Source of the DNA: Accumulibacter sp.
Lineage (GTDB): Bacteria > Pseudomonadota > Gammaproteobacteria > Burkholderiales > Rhodocyclaceae
Assembly: GCF_029255125.1 (NCBI RefSeq)
Contig: NZ_JAPUVR010000084.1
Coordinates: forward strand, 1 to 43,521
Direction of reading: 5' to 3'
Length of the DNA: 43,521 nucleotides
Position numbers and translations under genes: made by a program. Below, piece by piece: positions 9,120 through 41,862 of this stretch (positions are counted from its first letter, which is position 1; every line of letters begins with the position of its first letter). The notes beneath the pieces were generated by a model, which worked only from the letters and a program-made list of their open reading frames with translations, searched no databases and had not been told where the DNA came from.

Positions 9120-9794
9120 TCAATCGGCCAGCGCAATGAGCAAGGTGTCGTCAAGCATCGTAACCTTGTATGAGCTTTCCTTGTACGTCTTGTTGTCGGC
9201 CAGCAGCGTCGTCTTTACCGTGTATTTCTTGCCCTTTGCCGAGGCCGGCAACTTGAACTTCGAATTGGTCTGATACCTGCCGGCTCCATCGACGCTCGCC
9301 ACACGTTCGGTCTTTTCATCGACCAGTTTGTTGTTTTCATCGTATATCGCGTACTTCTGCGTCACCTCGGGCGCCTTGTCTCCGTAGCCGATGAGATCCG
9401 TATTCGAGGTCACCTTCACTTCGCGCTGCCCGTCGGTCTCCGGCGCACCGGTCTTGACGACGGTGTCGAACTTCACCGGTCGCACTTCACTCTTGGGAAT
9501 GACTTGCCCCCTCTTCTTGTATTCGGCGTTCAGCTGGCCGGCATCAGCCACCTTTTTCGACTCGAAATACCAGCCGATCATCAGGCCAACCGCAGCGCCG
9601 ACTGCGGCACCGACCAGGCAATTGTGCCCGGTTGCCGTGGCCAGGGCACAGCCGGCAGCGGCGCCGACGAGGGCACCGGTGGCCCGGTCGTCCATTCGCG
9701 TCGAGCCGTCCGGGTTGGTAACGCAAGCGCTGAGGAAGAAAATCCCTGCCAGACAAGCGGCAGTTCGACGCAAGGCAAAACGGTGATTGTCCAT
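9120..9794 (-). CDS. Glycine-zipper lipoprotein of unknown function
   Basis: 224 aa. The signal peptide ends in the lipobox LSAC, giving a lipidated C24. Residues about 38-75 form a glycine-zipper hairpin (GALVGAAAGCALATA then GAAVGAAVGLMIGWYF), a fold that inserts in or associates with the outer membrane. The rest (about 76-224) is a polar, Lys/Thr-rich, probably beta-rich periplasmic domain with two similar-looking segments (QKYAIYDENNKLVDEKTERV and KYTVKTTLLADNKTY). The ATG lies 24 nt after the WD40-caspase stop, so it is probably the last gene of that unit. The family is not one I can name beyond Gly-zipper; the role is inferred as an envelope partner of the caspase-like protein. Confidence 0.85.
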   Translation of the reverse strand: MDNHRFALRRTAACLAGIFFLSACVTNPDGSTRMDDRATGALVGAAAGCALATATGHNCLVGAAVGAAVGLMIGWYFESKKVADAGQLNAEYKKRGQVIPKSEVRPVKFDTVVKTGAPETDGQREVKVTSNTDLIGYGDKAPEVTQKYAIYDENNKLVDEKTERVASVDGAGRYQTNSKFKLPASAKGKKYTVKTTLLADNKTYKESSYKVTMLDDTLLIALAD

Positions 9795-9818
9795 TCCTGT
9801 TACTCTCCCTGAAAACTC

Positions 9819-12800
9819 CTACTGTGCCTTGACGGCGATCGGATCGTCTATGCCGACCGTGAAAATCACGGGTCGCTGCTCGCGCTTGGTGAGTTCTATA
9901 ACCCTGTCTGTCACATAGCTTTGTAGCGTCGATGGTCGGATTAGACCGTCTTTTCTAAAGTCGGCTCCCCCACGGAGGCCTTCGATGATCGCCTTGGTAA
10001 AGGCACCGTTTCCCCACGCCGGGTCTTCCTGCGAATACTCCTTGCCGGTAGACGATGCAAAGACGAGAACCCCTCGTTCTTCATTGATTTCGTTGAGGGC
10101 TTTGGTCAGGTCCGGATTCGTCGACGACTGGCCGGGACGGGCATTGACCCCCGAATGACAAGTATCGATGAAGAATGCGGAGCGCCCCTTCAGGCCGAGC
10201 AGAGTGCGCGAAATCTCCTCGCCGGGTACCCAGCGCCGTGGCGCATTCTGCTGTTTCCAGTTTTCGAATTCCTGCGGGTTCTTGAAGTCGGCACGCGAGG
10301 GCAGCACTTCGGGGTCTCCCGGGATGAAGTAATACGCCGCCCCTACGCGATCGCCGTGGCCAGCCATGAAGACGACGCCAGCGTCCTTCTCGCCGACGCT
10401 TTCGCGCAGCCAGCGCAGGCCATCGAGCACATTCTGCCGGCTGGCCTGCTCGTTGATCAACAGTCGCGGGACAGCGGTTCCGTAGAGTTTGCCCGCCTGG
10501 CGGACCATGTGGTGGTTGAAGTCACGCGCGTCCTTCTCAGCCAGATCAAGCTTCCACTCTTCCGGGTACTTGCTGACGCCGATGATCAGGAGATAGAGCG
10601 TCTCGAAGCGCGTCTCGGGAACCTTCACCGGTGCCGCGCTGCGCCGAACGCTGATCACCACCGGCTCCGACTTGCCGTTCTTGTTCGCGGCAAACAGCCT
10701 GATCTGGCTGTCCACCGGCGGGATCTCCACCTGCACCTCGTGCGCCTCGCCGCGAGTGCTGCGCAGGGCGCGGTTGTCGAGCGAGCGAACCAGCTTGTCG
10801 TTGACTCGCACCTTGACTTCACTGACCGGAGCATCGCTCGGGCTACGCAGCACAAAACGCACGGGTATCGTACTCGCTGAGGTTTCGAGTTCGCTCTCGG
10901 TCTGCAGATCGATCACCGGCGGCAGCAGATTGGCCACGTTGCCCTGCCCGCGTGCAGGCGGCGGCGCAACAGCAGGCGTTGACGGTGCCAGCACCGACGG
11001 ACGCGGAGGACTCTTGCTCGTTTCGACAGGCGGTGGCAGAGAACCAGGTTCACTCACACCAAGCGCGGCAAGCGCGCTGGCAGCTGCACGCACCGCTTCG
11101 CCTTCATCGCCGGTGCGCAGAATGCTCTGGATGATCTCCGGGCGGTAGAAACGATCGCGGAAGCGACCGACCGAGAAGAAGTCGGACGCGATGTTCGGAC
11201 CGCGATTGAGGTGCCAGCCAACAAGGTCTTCCCCTTCCAGCGACGTATCGTAGTAGCCGGACGGCGACCAGATGATCCAGCGCTTGCCGTCTATGTGGAC
11301 GAAGAGCGCGAGTTGCTCGCGCCCATCGCGCATACGGTACCAGCGAATCGTTCCGTCGCCCAGGCCGGCCACTACCCAGCGGCCATCGCTCGAGAGATTG
11401 GTTGCCCAGACCGCGGCCGGGGTGCGTTGTTCCCAAAGCGGGTTGCCGTCGACCGCATAAGCCCGCAGGTACCATTCAGTGCCCAGCACGAAACGCTGCT
11501 TGTCGGCGCTGATTGCCATGCTGCGCGATACTTCCCCGGGGCGCAACTCGAGCTGGCGCGAACCGATTTTGGGCGCGGAAGAATTCTTCCAGTTGCTCGG
11601 CCCGCCGCCCATCCAGCCTGGCTGGCGCGGCGATTCGAGTTTCGCTTCCGGGCCATAGGGGCGAACGTCACCTTTGGCAAGGTCAAAAAGCAGCATGTTG
11701 CCACCGGGAGCAAGCGGAAAGGCGACCCGCGCTGCATCTTCCGAGAGCATGAACTTGTCGTCCGCATCGCGATAGTCAGCCGTCTGCTGACGCGCGTAGA
11801 GCCGCCGGCTCCCCGCCGCGTCAAAACTCGCCCAGGAGGGCTCGGCGCTGCCTACCAGCACGCCGTCGCGCCAGGCGACAAGCGAGGTAACGATATTGCT
11901 GAATCCGGTGATCTCGCGTGCAGCCGCTCGTCCGCTGTCGGCAAAGGCGAAAACGGCAAAGCGGTCGCGCGCGCGCGCCGTACCGCCGCCATAGAGGATG
12001 CGGCCATCACTGCTCCAGGCGACGCGTCCCAAATTTCCCTCGCTGACCGGCGGAGTCGTATGGCGCGGCGTCAAGGTTGCCGCGTCGAGCACATCGATCC
12101 GGCCGCTATCCTGGTAGCCGACAGCCAGCATGCTGCCGTCAGGCGAAAACGCCAGTGAATACGGCTTGCCGGGCATCTGCTTGCGGGCGGTTCGCTGCAG
12201 CCCCTTGCGATCGATCCGGTAGAGGCGGATGCTGCCGTCCAGGCTGCATGTCGCGAGGCGCCCGTCGGCGGCAAAATCAGCGCCGTAGATCGCCTCGTTG
12301 TACTCCGGATCACTGCCAATGAAGCCTAGATTTCGTTGGAAAACACGTAGGCCGGACTGGCGCAGCCCCACCGCAAGCTGCTGGCTGTCCTTCGACCAGG
12401 CGACTTGCGTTACCGGTGCCTCCAATCCCGAAAGCGTACTCTTCGGCGGAAGCCGGCCGGAGGCTCGTTCGAAAAGGTAGAGCGAGTGCGTCCGTCCGTC
12501 GAAGCCGGCGTTACCACCCAAGGCGACCTGGCGCCCGTCCGGCGAAAGGGCGGCAGCGTAGATCGCGCCGACGCCTTCGGGTCCTACCGGCGGCCGGAAC
12601 ACGGTCAGCAGGCGCCCGGTCGCTGCGTCCCACAGGCGCGCAGTCTTGTCCTCTGACGCGCTGACAATCCACCGGCCCTGGCTATCGCTGCTGACACGCG
12701 TCACCAACGACAGATGGGCGCCTGCCTCGATGCGCAGAATCGGCTCGGTCGATACCTGAGCGGCCGCCGCCCGAACCAGACACAGCAGCAAACCGAACAC

Positions 12801-12830
12801 AAGCTGCCGGCAGGCGGCGCGCGCCCACAT
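9819..12830 (-). CDS. Exported WD40 beta-propeller and caspase-like (C14) protease
   Basis: 1003 aa from the ATG at 12830 (MWARAACRQLVFGLLLCLV, a convincing signal peptide ending AAAAQ). A TTG at 12875 would overlap the ompA-like gene and lacks a ribosome site. The N-terminal half is a WD40-type propeller: a canonical blade is SSDSQGRWIVSASEDKTARL with DAATGRLL, and further blades read LSPDGRQVALGG and FSPDGSMLAVGY. A proline-rich linker (about 600-640) and an Ig-like segment follow. The C-terminal domain is a caspase/metacaspase fold with catalytic H825 (FMAGHGD) and C891 (FIDTCHSG), both intact, and basic-residue-type specificity cannot be read. It is predicted to be periplasmic or surface-exposed. 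Family members are common in environmental bacteria, with poorly known substrates. It sits after FecR and OmpA-like genes. Confidence 0.92.
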   Translation of the reverse strand: MWARAACRQLVFGLLLCLVRAAAAQVSTEPILRIEAGAHLSLVTRVSSDSQGRWIVSASEDKTARLWDAATGRLLTVFRPPVGPEGVGAIYAAALSPDGRQVALGGNAGFDGRTHSLYLFERASGRLPPKSTLSGLEAPVTQVAWSKDSQQLAVGLRQSGLRVFQRNLGFIGSDPEYNEAIYGADFAADGRLATCSLDGSIRLYRIDRKGLQRTARKQMPGKPYSLAFSPDGSMLAVGYQDSGRIDVLDAATLTPRHTTPPVSEGNLGRVAWSSDGRILYGGGTARARDRFAVFAFADSGRAAAREITGFSNIVTSLVAWRDGVLVGSAEPSWASFDAAGSRRLYARQQTADYRDADDKFMLSEDAARVAFPLAPGGNMLLFDLAKGDVRPYGPEAKLESPRQPGWMGGGPSNWKNSSAPKIGSRQLELRPGEVSRSMAISADKQRFVLGTEWYLRAYAVDGNPLWEQRTPAAVWATNLSSDGRWVVAGLGDGTIRWYRMRDGREQLALFVHIDGKRWIIWSPSGYYDTSLEGEDLVGWHLNRGPNIASDFFSVGRFRDRFYRPEIIQSILRTGDEGEAVRAAASALAALGVSEPGSLPPPVETSKSPPRPSVLAPSTPAVAPPPARGQGNVANLLPPVIDLQTESELETSASTIPVRFVLRSPSDAPVSEVKVRVNDKLVRSLDNRALRSTRGEAHEVQVEIPPVDSQIRLFAANKNGKSEPVVISVRRSAAPVKVPETRFETLYLLIIGVSKYPEEWKLDLAEKDARDFNHHMVRQAGKLYGTAVPRLLINEQASRQNVLDGLRWLRESVGEKDAGVVFMAGHGDRVGAAYYFIPGDPEVLPSRADFKNPQEFENWKQQNAPRRWVPGEEISRTLLGLKGRSAFFIDTCHSGVNARPGQSSTNPDLTKALNEINEERGVLVFASSTGKEYSQEDPAWGNGAFTKAIIEGLRGGADFRKDGLIRPSTLQSYVTDRVIELTKREQRPVIFTVGIDDPIAVKAQ

Positions 12831-12855
12831 TGGGAAACCCAGGCGCGGCTTGGGC

Positions 12856-13449
12856 TTAACGAACGAGAATTTCAATTCGGCGATTTCTCGGCTCGGGCGT
12901 TTCGTCCGGAGTCGCGATCAAGGGTTCGCGTTCTCCGCGGCCCGCGGTCTGAATCGAGTCTTCCGGCTGACCCTGCTGTATCAGCCGCTTCTTGAACGAC
13001 TCGGCGCGGCGCAAGGCCAAGCGATCGTTGTCGGCAACGAGGCCAACCCGATCGGTGTGGCCAACGACCACGATGTCGGGAACCGGGCGCGCCTTGATCT
13101 CGGCAATGATCGCGTCCAGATCGCGTTTTGACGCGGTCGTCAGCTCGTCGCTGCCTTCAAGGAAGTACAACGTGAAACGTGCCGGTGGCGGCGGCGAGGC
13201 ATCGAGCGCTTCCCCGAATCGCTTCTTGACCTCCTGCTCGTTGCTGGTTCCCTGCTCAAACTTACCGCCGGTGGTGCGCGCGCTTTGATACGGGCGCTCG
13301 AGTTTGATTGCGTGACCGCCCTCGATGGCCTTGACGCTGAGCGTTCCCGCGTCGCCGGCACCACGGTTCGGTAGCAAGACGTAACTATCGCGGTTGGCGC
13401 AGGCGACGACGCTGAGTGAGACAGCAAGCACGATTGACAAGCTCTTCAT
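12856..13449 (-). CDS. OmpA-like peptidoglycan-binding lipoprotein
   Basis: 197 aa. The lipobox VVAC gives lipidated C17. Residues 18-85 have no recognised domain; the C-terminal OmpA/MotB-like domain (about 92-197) has FTLYFLEGSDELT, VVVGHTDRVG and the NDRLALRRAESFKKRL helix that binds the diaminopimelate of peptidoglycan, ending NRRIEILVR. It starts 3 nt after the FecR-like gene stop and ends 25 nt before the WD40-caspase start. Role inferred: anchoring the complex to peptidoglycan. Confidence 0.92.
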   Translation of the reverse strand: MKSLSIVLAVSLSVVACANRDSYVLLPNRGAGDAGTLSVKAIEGGHAIKLERPYQSARTTGGKFEQGTSNEQEVKKRFGEALDASPPPPARFTLYFLEGSDELTTASKRDLDAIIAEIKARPVPDIVVVGHTDRVGLVADNDRLALRRAESFKKRLIQQGQPEDSIQTAGRGEREPLIATPDETPEPRNRRIEILVR

Positions 13450-13452
13450 CGC

Positions 13453-13944
13453 TTATTCCCCAACACTGACTACATAATTCTTGGCCGTACCGCTGACTTC
13501 GGCCTTGGGCGTCACCATACGCATCGCCTCCGGCGTCTGCTTGGCAATGTTTCCGGCCTGCACCGACACCGTTCCGCGCTTGATGTACGCGTCGAAGGCG
13601 CCCATATACGTCGTCGAGTCGTAGGCATACCGTTGCAGCACGACTTCGGCGTCGGATCCAAGAGACAGGGTCGAATTGTCCTTGAACATGATACCCACCG
13701 AACCGTTACCGCCAGTCTGGATCGTGTCCTTTTCCTTCAAGCGCGCACCGACGACTCCCGGGTAGCGTTGGCCGTCGCGTTCAATGTTCACCACACCGCG
13801 CGACACTTTGACCTGAGCATCCCAGCCCGTGGCAGCCGCTGGGGTTGGCTCGGCAGCCATCAGGGGAGCCGCACAAAACGCGGCGGCGCACAGGGCGCTC
13901 GCCGCCAGGCCCGAGGCCCGCTTGTGTCTTGAAATCTGCAGCAT
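13453..13944 (-). CDS. Exported FecR-domain protein
   Basis: 163 aa. The signal peptide spans about residues 1-30 (ALCAAAFCAAPLMAAEP). The FecR-type domain follows (about 44-140), with KVSRGVVNIERDGQRYPG, LKEKDTIQTGGNGSVGIMF and STLSLGSDAEVVLQRY, the usual pattern of this beta-rich fold. No anti-sigma cytoplasmic domain or membrane anchor is present, so it is a stand-alone exported FecR protein and not a classic sigma regulator. GGGAAGG precedes the ATG. It is the first gene after the intrinsic terminator at 14089-14134 and has its own candidate promoter, so it opens a second transcription unit with the OmpA-like, WD40-caspase and Gly-zipper genes. Confidence 0.88.
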   Translation of the reverse strand: MLQISRHKRASGLAASALCAAAFCAAPLMAAEPTPAAATGWDAQVKVSRGVVNIERDGQRYPGVVGARLKEKDTIQTGGNGSVGIMFKDNSTLSLGSDAEVVLQRYAYDSTTYMGAFDAYIKRGTVSVQAGNIAKQTPEAMRMVTPKAEVSGTAKNYVVSVGE

Positions 13945-13977
13945 GAGAACCTTCCCAAAAAGTTTGGCGGGACACCA

Positions 13978-13990
13978 TGTCCGTCGGACA
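13978..13990. promoter_or_regulatory. TGTCCG/CGGACA palindrome at the predicted FecR transcript start
   Basis: TGTCCGTCGGACA is a perfect 6-1-6 inverted repeat just downstream of the candidate -10 box (13993-13998), where the transcript should start. This is a typical place for a repressor operator; no cognate regulator is in the window. Function inferred only. Confidence 0.3.
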
Positions 13991-13992
13991 TC

Positions 13993-14021
13993 AGTCTAGC
14001 GCGCAAGTGCCCCAGCGGCAA
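13993..14021 (-). promoter_or_regulatory. Candidate sigma-70 promoter for the FecR-OmpA-caspase unit
   Basis: On the minus strand, TTGCCG (14021-14016) and TAGACT (13998-13993) are separated by exactly 17 nt. Each hexamer matches 4/6 of the consensus. It lies between the intrinsic terminator and the FecR-like gene, where an independent promoter is needed. Two small inverted repeats (14017-14043 and 14045-14065) surround it. Confidence 0.4.
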
Positions 14022-14088
14022 CCTGCGTGGCTTCAGGGTTGCCCCTCCCGAGTAGGGAACGGGAGCTCCGGACAAGTGGGGGCCACTC

Positions 14089-14134
14089 AAAAAGCGAAAA
14101 GCCACCGCTGACGGTGACCCGTCAGCGGTGGCTT
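14089..14134 (-). terminator. Strong intrinsic terminator after the second repeat-protein gene
   Basis: A perfect stem, GCCACCGCTGACG (14101-14113) against CGTCAGCGGTGGC (14120-14132), extends by two A-T pairs to 15 bp with a 6-nt loop. On the minus strand it is followed by TTTTCGCTTTTT. It lies about 15 nt after the stop of the 97-aa repeat protein. It should end or strongly attenuate transcription, dividing the 19-9 kb cluster in two units. Confidence 0.92.
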
Positions 14135-14148
14135 CGTGCGCGACGAAA

Positions 14149-14442
14149 TTACTTCTTGGCGTCGCCGATCACGCCGGCTTCGTTGGTGGCGGTATTGCCC
14201 TTGCCGACAGCAACCGCGGCTGCGTTGGTCTGCTTGGCCTTGATGTCGGTACGGCCCTGAACAGAGGTCTTGCCCTTGATGGCGCCGGCCGTGTTGGCAG
14301 CCTTGTTGTCCTTGCCGACGGCTACCGCGGCGACGTTTTCCTGTTTGGCGTCGATGGTCGTCGTGCCCTTGACTTTGGTGTCCTGAGCAAAAGCGGGAGC
14401 AGCAGCAAAGGCGGCGGCGAGGATGATGGCGATAGTGCGCAT
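14149..14442 (-). CDS. Secreted two-repeat curlin-like protein
   Basis: 97 aa. The signal peptide is about residues 1-19 (AAFAAAPAFA, cleaved before Q20). The mature protein is essentially two copies of one repeat, starting about V24 and V61 (37-residue period). Both copies share GxTxIxAKQ, NxxAVAVGK, NxAxN and AGxI, with about 20 identical positions. Alternating small and hydrophobic residues with regular Asn/Gly resemble curlin or other beta-solenoid amyloid repeats, though not the exact CsgA pattern. It has an excellent ribosome site (AAGGAG, 7-nt spacer) and is followed at once by a strong terminator, as expected for an abundantly made subunit. Related to the protein at 15434-15760. Function is inferred; no database match was available. 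Confidence 0.85.
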   Translation of the reverse strand: MRTIAIILAAAFAAAPAFAQDTKVKGTTTIDAKQENVAAVAVGKDNKAANTAGAIKGKTSVQGRTDIKAKQTNAAAVAVGKGNTATNEAGVIGDAKK

Positions 14443-14474
14443 AGAGATTCTCCTTAGTTAATTTGTGGTTACTA

Positions 14475-14500
14475 GGTACTGCCTGGTACTACCGTACTGC
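14475..14500. repeat. Three tandem about 10-bp direct repeats upstream of the repeat-protein gene
   Basis: On the plus strand, GGTACTGCCT, GGTACTACC and GTACTGC follow each other (14475-14484, 14485-14493, 14494-14500). The about 10-bp period puts the same face of the helix forward, as in multi-site operators. It lies 33-58 bp before the ATG at 14442, in the only non-coding gap of the upstream unit apart from its promoter. Confidence 0.4.
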
Positions 14501-14515
14501 AATGGATGCTTGCCG

Positions 14516-15124
14516 TCAGCCGGCAACAACCTTGAACACCACGCGCCGGTTCTTTGCGTCGCGCGGATCCAGGTCCCTTAGTGGGTCGGTCGAGCCCTTG
14601 CCTACCGGCACCAGGCGTTTACGTTCGACCGACCCTTTGTCTACGATGAACTTCACTACGGCGTTGGCACGCTCGCGCGACAACGCCATGTTTTTCTCCG
14701 GATTCCCGTCCGCATCGGTGTGACCCTCGACGATCACGCAGCGATCGGGCGTCAGCGCCAGAATCTTGCCAATCTCGGTTAACGTGTTGCCCGATCCCGG
14801 CGTGATCACCGCACTGCCCGGACGAAACTGAATCGGGAACTGGACAGCGGTGGCACGAACGTCTGGCGGAAGCGCTGCACAGTCAGTCGCCCCGCCGCTG
14901 GCGGCTGGCGCTGCACTGGGTTGGGCCTGCGTTGCGTCGCCATCGAAGACGATCGCCCGCGTCCGCTTCTTCTTGGGCGCTTCAGACGGTTCAGTCATCG
15001 CACGACGAAGTTCCTCCAGGCCGGAGGCGTCGTCGTCCGCTGCGCTGGCAAGTGGAGCAAAGGTGACGCCGTTCAACAAGCTAACCAGCGCTACGGCGGC
15101 AACCCGTTTAAGATTCGCTTTCAT
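14516..15124 (-). CDS. Exported OmpA-like protein
   Basis: 202 aa from the ATG at 15124 (MKANLKRVAAVALVSLLNG, signal peptide ending PLASA). A second ATG at 15142 would overlap the upstream gene by 10 nt; neither has a strong ribosome site, so the start is uncertain by six residues. The region after the signal is charged and Ala/Pro-rich (about 30-85, including EAPKKKRTR). The C-terminal OmpA-like domain (about 95-202) has the FRPGSAVITPGS segment, VIVEGHTDADG and the NMALSRERANAVVKFIV helix. No lipobox cysteine. It follows the 104-aa gene by 8 nt and probably binds peptidoglycan. Confidence 0.9.
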   Translation of the reverse strand: MKANLKRVAAVALVSLLNGVTFAPLASAADDDASGLEELRRAMTEPSEAPKKKRTRAIVFDGDATQAQPSAAPAASGGATDCAALPPDVRATAVQFPIQFRPGSAVITPGSGNTLTEIGKILALTPDRCVIVEGHTDADGNPEKNMALSRERANAVVKFIVDKGSVERKRLVPVGKGSTDPLRDLDPRDAKNRRVVFKVVAG

Positions 15125-15132
15125 TGACTGTC

Positions 15133-15447
15133 TCACTTGCATACGTTGATGACTTCTTTGGTGGTCACGACGACGTCTTTCGGTGCCCTTTGTCCGGGCC
15201 GTCCCGTCTGGGCCGTACCTACATTAACGTTGCACGTGTTATTCCGTTTACTTCCGATGTTAACAACTCGCTTCTGCAGCGCCGGATCGTTCGGATTGCC
15301 ACCCTTTTGCCAGGCTTTGGCCATGGCATTGTTGACTTTCGTCTGGGAAGCCGCGTTGAGGTTCTGGACGGCGTAGGCCGCGCCTGCCGACAAGCAGACG
15401 AGCGCGACGACCAGGTTTCGCGCAATTCTGGGTTTACTTGCATTCAT
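15133..15447 (-). CDS. Small exported protein of unknown function
   Basis: 104 aa from the ATG at 15447 (a TTG at 15456 is possible). The signal peptide is MNASKPRIARNLVVALVCLS with cleavage near AYA-V. The mature part has a polar helical-looking segment (SQTKVNNAMAKAWQKGG) and a C-terminal half with two cysteines (NNTCNVNVG and the final INVCK), perhaps a disulfide. It overlaps the upstream repeat-protein gene by 14 nt. Like its neighbour it ends in -CK, and RNNTCNVNVGTA could be a decayed repeat, but this is weak. No family recognised; position argues for a minor component or chaperone of the repeat proteins. Confidence 0.75.
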   Translation of the reverse strand: MNASKPRIARNLVVALVCLSAGAAYAVQNLNAASQTKVNNAMAKAWQKGGNPNDPALQKRVVNIGSKRNNTCNVNVGTAQTGRPGQRAPKDVVVTTKEVINVCK

Positions 15448-15760
15448 CGCTGACAATCGCTCCTATATTGGTACACGCTTTTCTGTTCCTGCCCGCGGCC
15501 ACTGTCGTGACGTTGGTTGCAGAGACATTGATTCGTGTATTTCCCTTCTTATCACCTTGGATGACGCCGACCCGATTCCGGGCGACATTGTTGCTGCCTA
15601 TGGCAACCGCCGTCGTATTCTTGGTTGACGCGTTGATCTCGGTGTTCCCCTGGACACGGGTGGTTTTCTGAGCATGACATGACTGGGAAATGCTCAGCGC
15701 GGCAAACAAGGCAAAGCACACCTTGATTGACGATCCAGAAACGTGGGCGAACATACTCAT
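15434..15760 (-). CDS. Secreted two-repeat curlin-like protein (second paralogue)
   Basis: 108 aa. The ATG at 15760 overlaps the metallopeptidase stop (ATGA) and has AGGAG with a 7-nt spacer. Signal peptide about 1-30, ending SCHAQ. Two repeats of about 34 residues start near G38 and G73: GNTEINAS, then TAVAIGSNNVARN and GVI; and GNTRINVS, TTVAAGRN, then IGAI. They share the GxTxI, NxxxxVAxG and GxI framework with the 97-aa protein at 14149-14442, but carry more Arg/Asn and two cysteines in or after the second copy (C96, C107). Probably a minor or nucleator-like subunit versus the Ala/Lys-rich paralogue; inference only. Confidence 0.85.
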   Translation of the reverse strand: MSMFAHVSGSSIKVCFALFAALSISQSCHAQKTTRVQGNTEINASTKNTTAVAIGSNNVARNRVGVIQGDKKGNTRINVSATNVTTVAAGRNRKACTNIGAIVSDECK

Positions 15761-16704
15761 GGCGCATCTCCTGCCTTGACGTTGAGCGGCAGCCGAGTCG
15801 GCGGCCGTCCCTTTAGGAACGCTTCCCGCATTCCGGCCAGAGCCTTTTCCGTCACGCCGAGACGAGTTGCCGAAAACGACCCGGCGTCCGGCGTAAACAT
15901 CAGATAAGCCTGCATTTCATTGATCAGTAGTTCCTCGTTTTCAACCGCATAGCGCATGCTCGCCAGGAAACGCCGAAAGGCGTCCTTTTGCGTATCGGTC
16001 AGGCTGTCTTCCCAGAAGGCGCGGCAATACTTGTTGTAGGCAAGGTTCGTGTGAAACTCGCCGTGCGCCAGTTCGTGCAACAAAATCGCATAGCGCGCAT
16101 TGCTCGTCACTCCTGGCTCATTGCTGCGACGTTCCTGCACCTGCGGGATCGAGAGAATCATCGTGTGCGGCTTTTGCGCCTGATAGAAACCTCGCCATTC
16201 CTTCATCAGACCCTGTTCGACCAGGAAGTCGCGCAGGGCGTATTCCTCAGGGAACAGTTCGACCTTGTCGCGCTCGGCATAGTTGAAGAACTGAACCAAA
16301 TCAGAGACCCGCAGATCGTGTCCGGCAGCGAAACTGGCAAAAGTCCGGTTGGCTGCACCAATGTACTTGGTCAGCTCCTCGGTCGTCAGAACGCGCGGAT
16401 ACGGTTCGCTGTATTGATGTTCCTTGAGCTGCGTCACGCGGTTGAAGGTGCGACCAAGAACCTCGAGTCCGGGAACATCGATGATCCAAATCTCGCTGTT
16501 CGGCGTGTAGCGCCAAGCCACTGGCGCGTCGAGCCTGGTCTGCAGAATCGCCTTCATGTCGCCGTCTCTGACTTCGAAGGCTTGTGCCGTGACGTTGCCG
16601 AGCAGGACGACGATCAGGCTGAGCAGAAACAGCACACGGTTCAGCAGGTGCACCGGGCGCGACGCAGTACTTGCCATCGCCAGAGGATCTTTTCCAGGCT
16701 TCAT
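15757..16704 (-). CDS. Exported or membrane-anchored HExxH metallopeptidase
   Basis: 315 aa. An N-terminal hydrophobic segment (about 19-40, LLNRVLFLLSLIVVLLGNV) is a signal peptide or anchor. The zinc site is visible: H210-E211-x-x-H214 in HELAHGEFH and a likely third ligand E263 in NEMQAYLMF, 49 residues on, a gluzincin-like layout. The rest is not a family I can name. The ATG at 16704 overlaps the preceding gene (ATGA) and has GGAG upstream. Placed between the CsgG-like gene and the repeat-protein genes, it may process or clear exported subunits; this is inference. Confidence 0.82.
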   Translation of the reverse strand: MKPGKDPLAMASTASRPVHLLNRVLFLLSLIVVLLGNVTAQAFEVRDGDMKAILQTRLDAPVAWRYTPNSEIWIIDVPGLEVLGRTFNRVTQLKEHQYSEPYPRVLTTEELTKYIGAANRTFASFAAGHDLRVSDLVQFFNYAERDKVELFPEEYALRDFLVEQGLMKEWRGFYQAQKPHTMILSIPQVQERRSNEPGVTSNARYAILLHELAHGEFHTNLAYNKYCRAFWEDSLTDTQKDAFRRFLASMRYAVENEELLINEMQAYLMFTPDAGSFSATRLGVTEKALAGMREAFLKGRPPTRLPLNVKAGDAP

Positions 16705-17012
16705 TCAGTTTTCTCCGTTACGCTTGCGCCCTCACCCTTCTTACCCCAGCGGATTGAGTACGTCTTCCTGGTCTTCTTGGAGAAGTACTCGCCCACACCC
16801 CGATCGATTTTCGCCCCGTCGATATAAACGTCGTCGTTGATGATCAGCACACCTTCGATCACTGCGTCCTTGTCGACCTCGCCGGAGGTATTGGCGACAA
16901 AATTGTTCGACCCCCAGTCGATTTTCACGCTACCGCCGAACCCAGCGACTGCCACCCAGGCAACGACCACCAGTGTCAGCAACACCAGCAGGGAAGCAGC
17001 GGCCATCTTCAT
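16701..17012 (-). CDS. Small membrane-anchored protein of unknown function
   Basis: 103 aa. One N-terminal transmembrane segment (about 5-25, LLVLLTLVVVAWVAVAGF), then a periplasmic segment with GGSVKIDWGSNNFVANTSGE and INDDVYIDGAKI, and a basic C-terminus (KKTRKTY, RWGKKGEG). The mature part looks beta-rich. It overlaps the metallopeptidase gene by 4 nt and starts 26 nt after the upstream gene. No family recognised; the overlap argues that it works with the metallopeptidase. Confidence 0.8.
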   Translation of the reverse strand: MKMAAASLLVLLTLVVVAWVAVAGFGGSVKIDWGSNNFVANTSGEVDKDAVIEGVLIINDDVYIDGAKIDRGVGEYFSKKTRKTYSIRWGKKGEGASVTEKTE

Positions 17013-17038
17013 TGCTCGCCCCGTTCACGTCCTGGCGG

Positions 17039-17500
17039 TCAGTCATCACGCTTCCGATAAACGGTCGAACGGGCGCGATTGTCGTGCGCGCCCTGACCTT
17101 CGGCGGTGGAGTGCGAGTTCACGGTTCCCTGCGGAACAACGATCACGCTTTGCGCTGGATGGTTGTCATCGCGCGTTCGATTGGCGTTCGCCCGCGTCCG
17201 GTTGTAAGCCGCACCATTGGCCGCCGGAGTGCCGGTGGGCGTAGCTCCGTTGACCCCTTCAATGATGATTATGTTCGGCGTTCCCTCGAATTCGCCGCGA
17301 CGCCCTTCGATAGCGGCTCGCTGACGCGCTTCGCGGGCAGTAGCTGAACCGCCCGAGGCCGGACCTGGCGTCGGTCCGACGATGATCTCGCCCGCCGAAG
17401 GCTGGACATAGGAGAACATGCAAGCCGCCATCACTGCCACCTGACCGGCACTGCACAACCCGGCGAAGCGTCGACCCAACCACATGGTTTCCGTGTCCAT
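17039..17500 (-). CDS. Small exported Asn/Arg-rich protein of unknown function
   Basis: 153 aa from the ATG at 17500, which has AGGGA upstream; a TTG at 17518 is less likely. The N-terminus (about 1-38) carries a hydrophobic stretch (SAGQVAVMAACMFSYVQPSAG) that could be a signal peptide. The mature part is low-complexity: Pro/Gly/Ser-rich, a coiled-looking basic region (TAREARQRAAIEGRRGEF), a short hydrophobic strand (NIIIIEG), then Asn/Arg-rich sequence (NRTRANANRTRDDN). It is the second gene of the cluster, 32 nt after the CsgG-like gene. Composition fits a secreted fibre or adhesive protein, but no function can be assigned. Confidence 0.72.
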   Translation of the reverse strand: MDTETMWLGRRFAGLCSAGQVAVMAACMFSYVQPSAGEIIVGPTPGPASGGSATAREARQRAAIEGRRGEFEGTPNIIIIEGVNGATPTGTPAANGAAYNRTRANANRTRDDNHPAQSVIVVPQGTVNSHSTAEGQGAHDNRARSTVYRKRDD

Positions 17501-17532
17501 TTCATTCCCTGGGCGCAAATCAACTTCAAGGC

Positions 17533-19092
17533 CTAAGGCGCAACCGTGATATCGACGATGCTGGTCACTGCCGTCGGGTTATTCTGCTTGTACTGACCAA
17601 TAATGTCGTCAACCGATTTGGCCGCCAGCGGGGAGAGATCGCGCGCGCCGCGCAAGCTGCTCGGAATGATCAGCTCGCGATCCGAGGCGATGCACGCAAC
17701 GCGTTCTGCTCCGGGTTTGTCGAAGCGGATCTTGAATCCACCCGAAGGCAGCCTGATTCCCGCCCCTGCTGGAACCGACGAGTCGGGACGGAACTGGTTG
17801 GGGAAGATGCGCGCGGTCGTGCGCGAAACGTCTTCGTAGTAGCAATAGGCCGTGCCTTGCGCGTTCAAAGACAGGGTCATATTGAGGAACTCGCCGACCT
17901 TGTAGGACGGCTTGGATCCCCGATCAGTGTCCAGCTTCAGCCGGAAGACCGGATTCGGCGCGGTGGCCGGCGTCGCCACCGGCGTCGCCACAACCTGGGC
18001 AGCGGCCGGTGGTTTGGCCGACGCGCTGACGCCGGGCACGTAATTGGATTTCGGACCGCCGGCCGCCGGCAGGGCGGCAATTTGGTTCTGCAGATCGTCC
18101 AGCAGGCTGGCGTAGAGGTCGAAGTTCAGCGCCCCGTCGGCCACCAAGCCGGCCGCAGCCTGATACTCGGCGACCGCCGTCTTCAGCGCTGGACTCGGCG
18201 CGCCGTTCAACGGCCCGGCAAAACGACCCATGCCGGCGAGCTTGCGCTGCACGAAGAGAATTCTGTCGCTCTCCTTGGCACCGTCATACCACTCTCTGGC
18301 CTGCTCGCGAATCAAGGGATTGGTAACGTCGGTGTCCAGGCACTTCCAATAGGGCACCTGTGTGAATTTCCCTAGCGCCTCGATCAGCCCAAGCTCGACC
18401 AGCGTGCGCGTCGCCGCGCCGACGCCCTCGTTGCGACTGATGTCGATGTTGAAGCTCAGGCCAAGCTTGCCGATCTTCCCTCCACCCTCGCCAGCGACAC
18501 CGCCTTTCAGGAGCACCAGCGTATTCGACGTACTGGTAATCGGGATGATCTTGCGTGTCGCCGCGTTACCGATGCTGATATCCATGCTGATCAGGTCGTA
18601 CGAATCGTCTTTCGAGGCGCCGAAGTCGAGAAACGGTAGAGAGAAGCCGGCACCTTTGTTCTTGCGCACCGTACTGTCGTCCATCTGCGTGATCGAGCCG
18701 CGGATGTAATAGTCGGGCATGGTCCGGCTTTCTTCCCCGCGTGCCGCAAAGAGCGCTGCCAAGTCGTCTGCGGCAGAGTGAAAATCAATGAAATCAAATG
18801 CGTTGCTCTTAACGGTCATTTTCGAGACGGCCGTGATCAACATTTCCTTGGTGCCCGTCTTGACCTTCCCGGTTTCGTCGGGGATGCCGGCCGAGGTGAT
18901 TGCGATGCCCTGTTTGCCGTATGCATAAAACAGTTCATCCATACAGCGCAGTGACTGGGTGAAGTTGGTGATTGTCTTGATCGCCGGGGTCTTGGGCGCC
19001 GCACTTCCGGCGACTTCAGCGCCGATATCCTGACACAACCCAGCTACTGGCAACAGCGACAACGCGAGCAAAGACCGGCTTAAGGTTTTCAT
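17533..19092 (-). CDS. CsgG-like exporter domain fused to peptidoglycan-binding-like and DUF4384-like domains
   Basis: 519 aa; ATG at 19092 with AGGGG upstream. Signal peptide about 1-20; the sequence AGLC lacks a proper lipobox, unlike the CsgG lipoprotein. Residues about 35-270 look CsgG/HfaB-like: MLITAVSKM, DYYIRGSITQMDD, the membrane-strand-like MDISIGNAATRKIIPITSTS and the closing TRTLVELGLIEALGKF. Residues about 275-340 resemble a PG_binding_1 domain (FVQRKLAGMGRFAGPLNG, ALKTAVAEYQAAAGLVADG). After an Ala/Pro linker, residues about 385-470 match DUF4384 (GSKPSYKVGEFLNMTLSLN, GTAYCYYEDVS). CsgG proteins export curli subunits across the outer membrane; the same job for the repeat proteins encoded downstream is inferred. 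First gene of the cluster. Confidence 0.82.
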   Translation of the reverse strand: MKTLSRSLLALSLLPVAGLCQDIGAEVAGSAAPKTPAIKTITNFTQSLRCMDELFYAYGKQGIAITSAGIPDETGKVKTGTKEMLITAVSKMTVKSNAFDFIDFHSAADDLAALFAARGEESRTMPDYYIRGSITQMDDSTVRKNKGAGFSLPFLDFGASKDDSYDLISMDISIGNAATRKIIPITSTSNTLVLLKGGVAGEGGGKIGKLGLSFNIDISRNEGVGAATRTLVELGLIEALGKFTQVPYWKCLDTDVTNPLIREQAREWYDGAKESDRILFVQRKLAGMGRFAGPLNGAPSPALKTAVAEYQAAAGLVADGALNFDLYASLLDDLQNQIAALPAAGGPKSNYVPGVSASAKPPAAAQVVATPVATPATAPNPVFRLKLDTDRGSKPSYKVGEFLNMTLSLNAQGTAYCYYEDVSRTTARIFPNQFRPDSSVPAGAGIRLPSGGFKIRFDKPGAERVACIASDRELIIPSSLRGARDLSPLAAKSVDDIIGQYKQNNPTAVTSIVDITVAP

Positions 19093-19164
19093 TAGTCCCC
19101 TCTGAACATGTGAGCGTCAGCTTCCCCGGCCGGCAGGCACAATGCCGCCGGATGGTCACTCTGC

Positions 19165-19195
19165 AGTATAGCCTGTCTCCGCTGCGCCAGCGCAA
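19165..19195 (-). promoter_or_regulatory. Candidate sigma-70 promoter for the CsgG-like operon
   Basis: On the minus strand TTGCGC (19195-19190) and TATACT (19170-19165) are separated by 19 nt; the -10 matches 5/6. The spacing is long, which fits an activator-dependent promoter, and a CRP-like site lies just upstream. The predicted transcript start near 19158 leaves a leader of about 65 nt before the ATG at 19092. Confidence 0.42.
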
Positions 19196-19214
19196 GCGCC
19201 CGCGATGGCCGCCG

Positions 19215-19230
19215 CGTGAAGAAAGTCACA
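19215..19230 (-). promoter_or_regulatory. CRP/FNR-family binding site candidate
   Basis: TGTGACTTTCTTCACG on the minus strand matches the CRP core TGTGA-N6-TCAC at nine of nine core positions (the last base of the right arm differs). Its centre is about 64 bp upstream of the predicted transcript start, near the class I position (-61.5). A cyclic-nucleotide-responsive regulator of the CRP family could therefore control this cluster. Inference from pattern and position only. Confidence 0.5.
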
Positions 19231-19575
19231 CTTTTCGTGTTCCAATGTGCGCTCGATCCCGACTCGCCAAAGGCATCGGCAAACAGACCACGCCACCAAC
19301 ACGACATCTGAGCGTCATGCTGCGGCCGCCTACCACGTCCTGTGGTCTGAATAACGCACCCCAGCTTCCGCGGTTGACTGTGCACCAGCCCGCCCATCGC
19401 GCACCGGCGGCTGGCAGAAAAAGCGTCCAAAACGGCGTAGCCTCCCCAGCGCGTACCTCTTTGTGGGGTTAACGGCCCCTGCTGGCAAAACTTTAGGCAA
19501 CGGCGCGGGCAGTTTGGCGATCAGGACAAGTCGCTAGCCGGCTGGCGCCAACGCTTGGCGAAGCTGCGGCAGCGT

Positions 19576-21525
<1,950 letters not shown>

Positions 21526-24010: not shown

Positions 24011-24892
24011 CTAGGCCGAGTTGCGCCTCAGCGCCAGCGCGACAAAGACCGAAATCAGGCCAGCCAACGTCCCAGCGACGAAGCCAACCGTAAGCAGCAG
24101 TCCTTTTTTCGGACTGACCGGTTTTTCCCACACAAAGATGTCTTCGATGACCTTCGGCCCTTGCGTCGCTGGCGGGTCCAGTGCGGTTTCCAGCGCCATG
24201 ATACTCTGACGCTCATTGAAAAGCTGGCTCTCTTTCTGGACACGCAGAGCAGTCATCAGCGAAAGCTGTGTAAAGCGATCGTCCTTGACGCCGACGTTGG
24301 CAACCACCTTTCCCAACACAGTCAGTTCCTTCTCCGCGCTTGCCAGCCGTTCGCGGGCAATCGTCAGATCCAGGCGCATGCGATCAAGTGCCGGCTTGGC
24401 GATCTCGGCGTGCTTCTTCGCCAGTTCGGCGACGGCGCCATCAACAATTCGGCGCGCACCGTCGATCGTCTCGGCTCTCGCCCTGATCTCGATGAGCGCG
24501 CTGTTGCCCATCGCCGACGTGCTCTTGGCCACGTTCAAGGACAGGTGTTCGCCATCGGCGACTCCCTTTTGCGAGCGCCTCAGGTCGGCCAGCCATTCGC
24601 CGTGTCCAAGCATTTCGGCGACCCGCAGTTGAAAGGCCGGCGTTCGCATGCGCTCGACCGCCTGGGTCGCGGCTTCGACCGGAGCGCTGGCCAATTGTCC
24701 GACCACGCCGATCTGACCGACCTGCACCATCGCCATCGCCTCATACTTGGGTGTGATCAGCCAGATGGCCAAGCCGCCGGCAGCAAGGCCGGCCAGCGCC
24801 CAACCAGTCACCAAGCGCCAGCGCTGCCGCACGTCCTGCCATAGTTCCGGCAAACCAACCGCCGCTTGCGCGGGCCGCTCGTTCTGTGTCAT
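24011..24892 (-). CDS. Wzz-type chain-length determinant
   Basis: Inner-membrane polysaccharide co-polymerase that sets O-antigen or capsule chain length with Wzy. 293 aa. Two membrane segments bracket a periplasmic domain: TM1 about 27-46 (LVTGWALAGLAAGGLAIWLI) and TM2 about 264-288 (GLLLTVGFVAGTLAGLISVF). The TM1-proximal ITPKYEAMAMVQVGQ and the proline motif before TM2 (KPVSPKKG) are characteristic; the periplasmic part is largely helical. No tyrosine-kinase domain is fused. It is the promoter-distal end of the locus, 31 nt after the dehydratase gene. Confidence 0.88.
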   Translation of the reverse strand: MTQNERPAQAAVGLPELWQDVRQRWRLVTGWALAGLAAGGLAIWLITPKYEAMAMVQVGQIGVVGQLASAPVEAATQAVERMRTPAFQLRVAEMLGHGEWLADLRRSQKGVADGEHLSLNVAKSTSAMGNSALIEIRARAETIDGARRIVDGAVAELAKKHAEIAKPALDRMRLDLTIARERLASAEKELTVLGKVVANVGVKDDRFTQLSLMTALRVQKESQLFNERQSIMALETALDPPATQGPKVIEDIFVWEKPVSPKKGLLLTVGFVAGTLAGLISVFVALALRRNSA

Positions 24893-24923
24893 CGATGTAG
24901 CACTCCCCGTCGAATTGCCGTGC

Positions 24924-26849
24924 TCAATGCAAGGCTACTCCCGCCCCTGGCAAGCGCGCAAAGGCGCGCCAGAGCAGTTTCCCATCGCCGTGCCGAGCGG
25001 GTGCGTACTCCTGGACCATCGACTGCAGCAAGGCAAGCACTCTTTCGTAGTCAAACGCCTGACACGCGTCCTCGAGGTTCGCCAAGTGATCCCGCAAGAC
25101 CGCCCATGGAACCTCGTGCTCATAGGCGCGCATGATCAGCGGATGCGTTGTTCCCTCCACATGTTCACCGATCAGAAGTTCTTCGTAGAGCTTTTCGCCG
25201 GGCCGCAAGCCTACGATCTCGATCGCGATGTCGCCGTCGGGATGTTGCTCGTCGCGCAGCTCGAGACCGCTCAGGTGCACCATCCTTCGCGCCAGATCGA
25301 TGATCTTCACCGGCTTACCCATATCGAGGACATAGACCTCGCCCCCCTGACCCATCGCGCCCGCCTGGATCACCAGTTGCGCCGCCTCGGGAATCGTCAT
25401 GAAATAGCGGGTAATCTCCGGATGGGTCAGGGTGATCGGGCCGCCGCTGGCAATCTGCTTGCGAAAGAGCGGCACGACTGAGCCCGACGAACCAAGTACG
25501 TTGCCGAAGCGAACCATGCAGAAGCGCGTTTTGGCACCGCTTCTGGCCAGCGCCTGCAGAATCAGTTCCGATAGCCGCTTGCTCGCGCCCATCACGTTGG
25601 TTGGCCGTACTGCCTTGTCGGTCGAGATGAGGACAAAGGTTTCGACGCCGGCGGCCAGTGCTGCTTCGGCCATGCAGCGCGTCGCCACGGCATTGTTGCG
25701 CAAGCCTTCGATCGGATTGTGCTCGACCAATGGAACGTGCTTGTAGGCCGCTGCGTGATAGACCGTCTGCACGCTGAAGCTGGTCATGATCATCTGGTTG
25801 CGCCGCTGATGACTGACCGACCCGAGCAGCGGCACCACCTCGACGCGCAGCTTGCGCGCGGCGCACAGCGAGCTGAGCTCCTGATCGATCGAGTAGAGCG
25901 CGAATTCGGTCAGATCCATCAGGACCAGGCGCAGCGGGCGAAGGAGAACGAGCTGGCGACAGAGCTCCGACCCGATCGACCCGCCGGCACCCGAGACGAG
26001 AACGACCTTTCCCGTCACGCACTGGCTGAGCAATTGCGGATCAGGGGCAGCCGACTCGCGTCCGAGCAGATCCTCGATCTCGATCTCCCTGATTGCATCC
26101 ACAGAAATGCGGCCGTCGACCACATCGGCCATTCCCGGAACCAGCTTGACCCTGCAGTGCAGGCCTTCCAGACGCTCGATGATTTCCGCGCGCCGTGCGC
26201 GGGTGAGCGACGGTATTGCCAGGAGGACTTCGTCTATCCTCTTGCTGGCGACCAGCCGCTCGAGACTGTCGGGCGAATAGACACGCAGCCCGGCGACATC
26301 GGTGCGCTGCAAGGCTGGATTGTCGTCGCACAGCGCGAGCGGCGCGTACTCGCGACCGGCACGCAGCGCGCTGGCCAACTGCATCCCGGCGCTGCCGGCA
26401 CCGTAAATGACGACGCGCTTGCGCACGTCGGGCCCGCGCTCGGAGCGCACGACGAAACTGCGCGCCAGGAAGCGGGTGGCGCCAACGTAGACGATCGCCA
26501 GCAACCAATAGATCGCCAGGACGCCACGCGACAACCCGGGGGTGTGTGTCAGGGCGATGCCGGCCGCGAGCAGCAGGACTGAAACGGTGACGCCGCCCGC
26601 GACGACGAAAACCACCGTGCCTTCCATGAACCGGACGACCGCGCGGTAGAGCCCCAGGCGGACGAAAACGGGAATCGCCAGCACCGGTGCCGCCAGCATC
26701 TGCCACCCGTAGCCGTCCAGGTCAGGGCGCAGCGTTTCGAAACGTACGACGAGCGCCGACCAGAAGGCAAGCACCAGCAAGACGTAGTCCGCCGCCATGG
26801 CGACGAACTGCTTCTGCTTGCGCGGCAGCGCCAGGAAGCGCCTCAGCAT
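24924..26849 (-). CDS. Membrane-bound nucleotide-sugar 4,6-dehydratase (CapD/WbpM family)
   Basis: 641 aa. Four N-terminal membrane helices (about 15-125) are followed by a first Rossmann-like domain (VVIYGAGSAG, 146-155) and a second extended-SDR domain with the NAD-binding motif SGAGGSIGSE (286-295). The conserved AAYKHVPLVE, LISTDKAVRPTNVMGASKR and FCMVRFGNVLGSSGSV segments identify the CapD/WbpM family, which converts UDP-GlcNAc to a 4-keto-6-deoxy sugar, the precursor of FucNAc, QuiNAc and related residues. Its start overlaps the aminotransferase end by 7 nt. The exact product cannot be read from sequence. Confidence 0.93.
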   Translation of the reverse strand: MLRRFLALPRKQKQFVAMAADYVLLVLAFWSALVVRFETLRPDLDGYGWQMLAAPVLAIPVFVRLGLYRAVVRFMEGTVVFVVAGGVTVSVLLLAAGIALTHTPGLSRGVLAIYWLLAIVYVGATRFLARSFVVRSERGPDVRKRVVIYGAGSAGMQLASALRAGREYAPLALCDDNPALQRTDVAGLRVYSPDSLERLVASKRIDEVLLAIPSLTRARRAEIIERLEGLHCRVKLVPGMADVVDGRISVDAIREIEIEDLLGRESAAPDPQLLSQCVTGKVVLVSGAGGSIGSELCRQLVLLRPLRLVLMDLTEFALYSIDQELSSLCAARKLRVEVVPLLGSVSHQRRNQMIMTSFSVQTVYHAAAYKHVPLVEHNPIEGLRNNAVATRCMAEAALAAGVETFVLISTDKAVRPTNVMGASKRLSELILQALARSGAKTRFCMVRFGNVLGSSGSVVPLFRKQIASGGPITLTHPEITRYFMTIPEAAQLVIQAGAMGQGGEVYVLDMGKPVKIIDLARRMVHLSGLELRDEQHPDGDIAIEIVGLRPGEKLYEELLIGEHVEGTTHPLIMRAYEHEVPWAVLRDHLANLEDACQAFDYERVLALLQSMVQEYAPARHGDGKLLWRAFARLPGAGVALH

Positions 26850-28075: not shown

Positions 28076-28079
28076 CGGC

Positions 28080-28418
28080 TCAGACCTTTACCAAGAGTGT
28101 GGCCGGATTGCCGACCACCGTTGCCCCAGGCGCGACGTCTTTCGTCACCACCGCGCCCACGCCAACCACTGCGCCCCAGCCGATGACCAGCGGCTTGCCC
28201 GGCCTCACCTGTTTCAAAACGGCGCTAGAGCCGATGTACGCGTGATCCTGATAGGCCAGCACACGCCGGCCGTTGACCACCGCTGCGGAGGGGCGGTCGT
28301 CGACAACGACCCGCCTTTCCGACGGCACGCCCAGCCGGCGCAACTGCTGCTCGGCGATCGGCATCACGCCCCGACCGCAGCCGCTCGCCCCATAGACCGC
28401 AAACAAGTCGGCGTTCAT
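28080..28418 (-). CDS. Shortened NeuD/PglD-type sugar O/N-acyltransferase
   Basis: 112 aa, about half the usual length of about 210. The N-terminal GASGCGRGVMP segment (about 10-20) is the nucleotide-sugar-binding part, and the C-terminal GWGAVVGVGAVVTKDVAPGA with TVVGNPA is the end of the left-handed beta-helix. The middle of the beta-helix, where the catalytic histidine usually lies, is missing: LAYQDHAYIG joins the two ends in frame. The frame is intact and the ATG overlaps the sugar transferase stop (ATGA), so the gene may be translated, but activity is doubtful. An internal in-frame deletion explains the layout. Confidence 0.7.
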   Translation of the reverse strand: MNADLFAVYGASGCGRGVMPIAEQQLRRLGVPSERRVVVDDRPSAAVVNGRRVLAYQDHAYIGSSAVLKQVRPGKPLVIGWGAVVGVGAVVTKDVAPGATVVGNPATLLVKV

Positions 28419-30254: not shown

Positions 30255-30259
30255 GTCGG

Positions 30260-34296: not shown

Positions 34297-34351
34297 GTCG
34301 GCCTCATTGTTTCTTCACATCGCCGCCAAAGAGTGCGGGACACGCGGAGGT

Positions 34352-36863: not shown

Positions 36864-36957
36864 GATTCCCACTCCACTCAAAATCCGTGTTCTCGTCCGG
36901 CAGAACCATCAACTGGCTTGCCTTACTCCGAAATGCTCGATTGCCGTCAATCGCTGG

Positions 36958-37782: not shown

Positions 37783-37882
37783 CGGAATTCCTGGAAACGC
37801 TGCCTCGGCTACTCGCCAGCAGCAGACGCGCGCCGGCTTCGCTCGCGCCGCCGCGCAGGGGGTCGCGAATTATATGTCAAGG

Positions 37883-39253: not shown

Positions 39254-39322
39254 GGTAGCTGCTCGCTCAGAACCCGAAGCAGCGAGGGTAGGGCGGGAAG
39301 CCTGGCGGGCGGCGCGAACGAA

Positions 39323-40564: not shown

Positions 40565-40586
40565 CAACTTTTACCCGCGAGATGGT

Positions 40587-41828: not shown

Positions 41829-41862
41829 GCCGGACAATTTCCCGATCTCGCCGACTTTGGCC

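Follow-up and report, generated by a model that had tools for sequence, protein, structure and literature searches.

Genes and conservation of the locus

The 43,521-nucleotide (nt) contig NZ_JAPUVR010000084.1 of Accumulibacter sp. (the window, meaning this whole stretch) carries on its minus strand, at 9819–19092, a run of 11 genes that is uninterrupted in the list of open reading frames (Table 1). Two units adjoin here: unit 1, consisting of g1–g8 (14149–19092), and a FecR, OmpA2 and WD40-caspase module that accompanies it as an accessory in part of the lineages. We argue below that unit 1 probably encodes a fibre-forming, curli-like export and assembly system. An original prediction, made from the DNA letters alone, described eleven consecutive genes with almost exclusively exported products, and the gene list and the N-termini agree with it. 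Export-type N-termini, scored by simple hydropathy with no signal-peptide predictor (mean hydropathy of 2.0 or more across 10 residues close to the N-terminus), occur in 12/12 genes here (the 11 plus that at 9120–9794) compared with 4/10 of the remaining window genes, and those four appear by eye to be membrane-protein-like. With the listed starts, adjacent genes share 4, 4, 23, 10 and 20 nt; an internal methionine as start of the 107-amino-acid (aa) g6 shortens the 23-nt overlap to 14 nt, with which the predicted range of 4–14 nt is about right (4–23 nt otherwise). The families above Pfam cut-offs in the locus include OmpA (twice), FecR, PG_binding_1 and DUF4384. A sigma-70 promoter scan of 12800–19600 gave no match.

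Table 1. Features of the locus, in window positions
Feature	Position	Strand	Description	Evidence
g1	17533..19092	-	Predicted outer-membrane exporter, CsgG-like, 519 aa; PG_binding_1 and DUF4384 besides the CsgG-type domain; no lipobox	Foldseek, hhalign, Pfam
g2	17039..17518	-	Exported protein, 159 aa, poorly conserved	tblastn matches in 8/31 loci
g3	16701..17012	-	Exported protein, 103 aa	In same 13/121 genomes as rest
g4	15757..16704	-	Exported metallopeptidase-like protein, invariant HExxH	Alignment A5; same 13/121 genomes
g5	15434..15760	-	Repeat protein, 108 aa, two repeats; proposed minor or nucleating subunit	Alignment A1, period test
g6	15133..15456	-	Exported partner of exporter, 107 aa, two invariant Cys	Alignments A3/A7; same 13/121 genomes
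g7	14516..15142	-	OmpA-domain protein, likely peptidoglycan anchor	Pfam OmpA 1.6e-18
g8	14149..14442	-	Repeat protein, 97 aa, two repeats of 37 residues; proposed as main subunit of the fibre	A1, model
Hairpin	14098..14135	-	Terminator-like, 17 pairs (11 GC), T-rich tail, after unit 1	Terminator scan
g9	13453..13944	-	FecR-domain protein, accessory module	Pfam FecR 6.2e-6; 7/24 close loci
g10	12856..13449	-	Second OmpA protein (OmpA2), probable lipoprotein, accessory module	Pfam OmpA 3.2e-17; lipobox-like motif; 7/24 close loci
g11	9819..12875	-	WD40 + caspase, accessory module	Domain search (Peptidase_C14 E 9.3e-15); 6/24 close loci

The genes of unit 1 are kept together across relatives. We compared 31 loci, every one found via its CsgG-like gene, of which 24 (L025–L048, from 22 genomes) are close relatives with about 47–87% exporter identity. 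The exporter gene has its five closest recorded matches at 81–87%, three of them from Accumulibacter (81–83%). Among the 24 close loci, g3 and g4 each match in 22 in addition to the exporter, g6 and repeat proteins in 21, and g7 in 20; outside two loci discussed below, the gaps fall at contig or stretch ends. The link between the genes persists through rearrangement, as four of the 24 (L045–L048) have g1-g3-g4 in divergent orientation to g5-g6, joined by g7-g8 wherever enough sequence is present.

Co-occurrence across 121 genomes of the family shows the same pattern. Exporter matches occur in 19/121 genomes, 13 of them at E < 1e-138 and six weaker (4.8e-61 to 9.3e-4); g3, g4 and g6 are each found in 13/121 and the repeats in 14/121, including one weak match (G087, 6.5e-10). 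Five families, namely the CsgG-like protein at E < 1e-138, g3, g4, g6 and the repeats, thus occupy the identical 13 genomes, and the exceptions are weak or divergent matches. Two sets of 13 would coincide by random draw with P ~ 1e-17, a figure that assumes an independence the related genomes do not meet. Since the sampled genomes are related, presence and absence within a genus is more telling: five genera (g2, g19, g22, g29 and g52 of our numbering) hold genomes both with and without the set, e.g., G069 and G117 versus G001. Conservation in relatives, on which the original prediction hinged, holds for g1, g3, g4, g6 and the repeat proteins and is patchy for FecR, OmpA2 and the caspase.

Exporter, repeat proteins and divergent relatives

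By predicted fold and profile comparison, g1 is a CsgG-type exporter. When its AlphaFold2 model was compared with the PDB by Foldseek, ranks 1–22 were all CsgG entries (E 3.4e-7 to 2.5e-4), among them membrane-bound 4uv3 and CsgG–CsgF complexes; FlgT and PelC follow at ranks 23 and 31. Alignment by hhalign to a profile of Escherichia coli CsgG and 12 class relatives gave a probability of 95.1% (E 3.3e-8) over CsgG 45–259, a span that includes the membrane-hairpin region. Pfam adds DUF4384 (8.8e-13) and PG_binding_1 (8.3e-7) domains. A PDB sequence search with the exporter profile returned nothing useful.

The two small repeat proteins named in the original prediction are genuinely periodic. 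Compared with shuffles, g8 has a period of 37 residues at 55% identity (P ≤ 0.003) and g5 a period of 35 at 30% identity (P ≤ 0.010), with two repeats per protein and the consensus IQGNTxIxAxQxNxTAVAxGxNNxAxNxAGxIxG; a Cys pair is conserved within the last repeat of g5 (alignment A1). The g8 model is predicted all-beta, both repeats having the same strand pattern (predicted local distance difference test, pLDDT, 77.7 for the best of five models and 55.2 for the worst), and the top three of its 25 weak fold matches are FapC, FapC and CsgA fibrils. GxxNxA is present in both g8 repeats and occurs five times each in CsgA and CsgB; relative to shuffles it is enriched in g8 (P = 0.008), with P = 0.137 for g5. 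At least two g8 copies occur in 12/24 close loci, and in five of these 12 the copies share 90% identity or more across their last 74 residues; the window has a single copy. Several genomes also carry repeat genes outside the locus, and the three inspected are lone genes far from the exporter locus (L170 4528–4845, L171 4462–4794 and L172 4913–5248). One of the genomes with such a lone gene is G079, whose main locus (L029) has no visible g8. Because a g5 homologue of 180 aa in L045 (14999–15539) has about four repeats by eye, repeat number appears to vary in the g5/g8 family.

Membership in a well-known family unrelated to CsgG would have spoken against the original prediction; among 36 repeat-protein members, none exceeded a Pfam cut-off in the tables shown (best E 0.0029; here and for the g6-type proteins below, cut-offs are given for the first member only). 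PDB sequence searches with the repeat-protein profiles and with a single repeat unit gave nothing useful, and the repeat proteins match no known sequence family.

The remaining unit 1 proteins are less readily classified. No Pfam or NCBIfam family lies above cut-off for g2 or g3. The metallopeptidase that had been predicted corresponds to g4, whose HExxH (H210-E211-H214) is invariant across 14 sequences (A5); a PDB sequence search found no significant relative, and Pfam gave only M90 at E 0.049. We rejected the idea that g4 is broken in two relatives, as both frames are open and the flagged stops are the natural end or lie outside the gene. For 20 g6-type proteins, none of the Pfam matches in the tables shown exceeded its cut-off (best E 0.018). 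Nor was homology of g6 to CsgF or CsgE found, with an hhalign probability below 1% for both A3 and A7 against CsgE and CsgF profiles of three sequences each; the best-scoring stretch of A3, at CsgF 40–52, is given no weight here. E. coli CsgE and CsgF also went unmatched when set against the profiles made for g3, g4, g6 and the repeat proteins; g2, g7–g11 and the rest of the genome lay outside this comparison.

Divergent CsgG-like genes in other families are linked to g6 as well. Across 300 genomes of the order, profile searches found the exporter in 16 (13 strong, E < 1e-40) and g6 in 11, all inside the 13 with a strong exporter match; the repeat profile found three, only the family members. 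The system is best read as centred on Rhodocyclales. Among 15 divergent loci, an iterated profile found a g6-type gene in 10; an eleventh, seen by eye in L113, was confirmed in the longer stretch L179 (E 3.2e-12), a sixteenth divergent locus, L173, also has one, and none was found in L049, L053 (contig starts inside exporter gene), L055 or L117. In all 12 of the 16 that have g6, a secreted repeat protein adjoins it, with weak periodicity in two (L114, P = 0.017; L115, P = 0.043). In one locus, L174, the exporter and g6 are accompanied within 10 kb by a g4-type protein (E 9.5e-66), a pair of repeat proteins and an OmpA protein.

Curli-type motifs recur in some of these neighbours. QxGxxN exceeds shuffles (P ≤ 0.017) in 5/13 repeat proteins of divergent relatives and is absent from the other eight, and QxQxGxxNxQ-like units are found in six repeat proteins from five systems, L112 being alike with one extra residue. 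Secreted proteins with 4–9 tandem repeats of the form SNVxAxNxxQxQSGLLNxQxMxIGNAxG occur in other Burkholderiales families (L050, L110/L174, L111/L178, L112, L113/L179 and L173), and these proteins are probably the fibre subunits of sister systems. In the tables shown, Pfam placed none of ten relatives' repeat proteins above cut-off, the one ribosomal L28e match (5.5e-5) being below it. Downstream of the divergent exporters in L050 (11396–12443), L051 (16308–17371), L110/L174, L112, L113/L179, L173 and L178, the motif RCWQxGR occurs in a small exported protein. Some of these loci also have a GIN-like protein; the one tested, in L050, matches Pfam DUF2807 at E 8.3e-38.

A curli-like reading and its alternatives

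Comparison with described systems places unit 1 nearest to curli (Csg, type VIII secretion; components and what they do in PMC3521004). Both have an exporter of CsgG fold (in g1 by fold and profile–profile comparison) and at least two kinds of small, Sec-exported tandem-repeat proteins; GxxNxA occurs in the window repeats, and QxGxxN, around which the minimal curli repeat is built (X6QXGX2NX10; PMC3521004), in several relatives' repeats. Unlike curli, the window exporter adds PG_binding_1 and DUF4384 and belongs to a clade that mostly lacks a lipobox, and the locus has its own partner g6, an OmpA protein and an HExxH peptidase-like protein. No recognisable CsgA, CsgB, CsgE or CsgF had been seen in the original prediction, and in the families tested this stands: the curlin repeat PF07012 is found in 0/121 family genomes, including that of the window (the E. 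coli control was positive), and none of the locus families compared is similar to CsgE or CsgF.

In Pseudomonas, the Fap system (FapA–F) includes the cysteine protease FapD. Its likenesses to unit 1 are a protease in the locus, conserved Gly and Asn, and a repeat length of 38–39 residues (PMC12392863) versus 37 here. It differs in that the window exporter is CsgG-type, not FapF, the peptidase carries HExxH and there are two repeats per protein versus three; the minimal FapB/C repeat X15GX4NX3GX6NX7 (PMC3792158) is not matched by the window repeats. Pfam found neither the FapF porin nor the FapD C39 protease among the ten locus proteins searched. The Caulobacter holdfast anchor Hfa also uses a CsgG-family exporter, HfaB, and on the locus NCBIfam HfaB gives E 0.03 at 13.5 bits versus a cut-off of 300. 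The original prediction could name no described system of this make-up, and we found none in the literature. No published account that we found links CsgG to Accumulibacter or Rhodocyclales, or joins CsgG, curli and DUF4384; our search left subscription literature mostly uncovered and is weak evidence of novelty.

By analogy with curli, we infer fibre formation, pore activity and secretion of the repeats, and would assign the following roles, those of g6, g4 and g7 being suggested by linkage, motif and domain. Sec would carry all unit 1 products out of the cytoplasm. The CsgG-like protein would form an oligomeric outer-membrane pore, held on peptidoglycan through its own peptidoglycan-binding domain and the OmpA protein g7. 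The repeat proteins would cross the pore unfolded and then stack outside into a beta-solenoid or amyloid-like fibre, with g8 as the putative bulk subunit (given that 12 of the 24 close loci carry it at least twice) and g5, with its Cys pair, as a minor or nucleating subunit. A dedicated pore cofactor, the counterpart of the CsgE/CsgF role in curli, may be provided by g6, and g4 may clear trapped or misfolded subunits.

Several observations weigh against this reading. Pfam CsgG (PF03783) reaches only E 0.15 on g1, below cut-off, and nothing in the genome at E ≤ 0.001. The g1 model has a mean pLDDT of 61.5, and its CsgG matches are modest (target template modelling, TM, score 0.38–0.48) with large root-mean-square deviation. 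Unlike CsgG, the exporter lacks a lipobox, at script-chosen starts, in 18/20 loci of the closest clade (L025–L044); one is present in L045–L048 (4/4) and in 12/15 divergent loci, a count that omits a match within the L113 domain. A close CsgG-like gene stands without any partner in L037 and L038, from metagenome-assembled genomes that both also carry a full locus, and G325 and G354 have an exporter match without g6; the g6 profile A7 was itself partly built from genomes that it later found. On the side of the repeats, the g8 fold matches are not significant (E 0.22–1.7, probability 0.02–0.03, query TM 0.11–0.15), proteins of just two repeats are short, no more than two repeat genes occur in the genome of the window, and QxGxxN is absent from the window repeats. 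Profiles of repeat units scored inside shuffled controls against curlin units, as did those of the window units against the relatives' QxGxxN units, and homology of the repeats was found in neither case.

In an alternative that we consider unlikely, the CsgG-like protein exports the repeat proteins and these do not polymerise. They would instead act as small adhesins or binding proteins of beta-solenoid form, soluble or attached to the surface, with the pore simply held in place by the OmpA and peptidoglycan-binding parts. Two repeats would make a very short solenoid, the Cys pair of g5 is conserved, and the weak g8 matches include ice-binding proteins, bactofilin and putative adhesins. The multiplied g8 copies, near-identical in five of the 12 loci, and the extra copies elsewhere nevertheless suit a bulk subunit, and some relatives' proteins with 4–9 curli-motif repeats also argue for polymerisation.

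It is more improbable still that g1 forms no pore and is instead a periplasmic protein of the envelope, of the PelC/FlgT/LpoB type and with the same fold, and that the small proteins are its periplasmic cofactors or cell-wall binders. The peptidoglycan-binding domain, the absent lipobox and the OmpA partner do indicate the cell wall, and FlgT and PelC appear in the fold list, but only beneath 22 places taken entirely by CsgG, and the profile alignment covers the membrane-hairpin region of CsgG.

The original prediction had joined all eleven genes, including FecR, OmpA2 and WD40-caspase, into one surface system with built-in proteolysis, a view favoured by the shared strand and tight spacing in the window, by FecR and OmpA2 standing behind the cluster at four loci as well (L026, L028, L029 and L041, all but L029 having the caspase too) and by the presence of the system in all four genomes with a full-length caspase match; we reject it as very improbable, because a strong terminator-like hairpin separates the two parts, the module is patchy and sometimes inverted, and the caspase is found in just 4/13 system genomes. 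The hairpin lies directly after g8 (14135–14098) and has the most pairs of 11 terminator-like sites in 12800–19600, where shuffles give 8.2. Of the 24 close loci, seven have FecR and OmpA2 in place and six the caspase; the module was not found in the other 17, some of which are truncated where a contig or stretch ends, and three of the 24 (L031, L039 and L042) have the block in reversed orientation.

Individually, the predicted second OmpA, FecR and caspase-like proteins all have their Pfam domains, and the WD40-caspase may be an accessory of the system. Its full-length matches of at least 50% identity are confined to 4/121 genomes (G000, G008, G069 and G083), in one of which, G008, it is located on a separate contig. 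G104, which has a divergent exporter match only, shows a caspase match whose first half is 53% identical and whose second half is 41% identical. The FecR, OmpA and WD40-caspase genes and a glycine-zipper protein move together as a block (window 9120–13944).

Relation to other CsgG-like proteins and to granules

A survey of curli genes reported many CsgG matches outside curli systems, which it termed likely paralogues of a larger family, and two curli systems in Burkholderiales detected with Csg models (PMC3521004). One branch of these non-curli matches now has a conserved partner and candidate substrates. We tentatively suggest, as a possibility somewhat short of even, that the exporter and g6 mark out a lineage of CsgG-dependent fibre systems that is the second of its kind and separate from the first. 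It would span several families of Burkholderiales with a repeat subunit particular to each, would explain part of the CsgG paralogues outside curli operons and would, in Accumulibacter, build a protein scaffold of phosphate-removing granules.

Accumulibacter forms granules used for phosphate removal from wastewater. In two recent omics accounts of such granules, curli protein is attributed to Flavobacterium only, with other members proposed as suppliers of potential amyloid-like proteins (PMC12019908), and curli transcripts to Kaistella alone (PMC12016536). The fibre-forming system that we favour could be a matrix component invisible to searches for known curli genes. Curlin models are blind to the g5 and g8 repeat proteins, and existing granule proteome data are therefore open to re-examination.

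The window also holds polysaccharide biosynthesis genes at 24011–41963 (Polysacc_synt_2, a DegT aminotransferase, a glycosyltransferase and Polysacc_synt). Between these and the cluster lie genes that by eye are rpoD-like and dnaG-like, together with a tRNA-Val gene.

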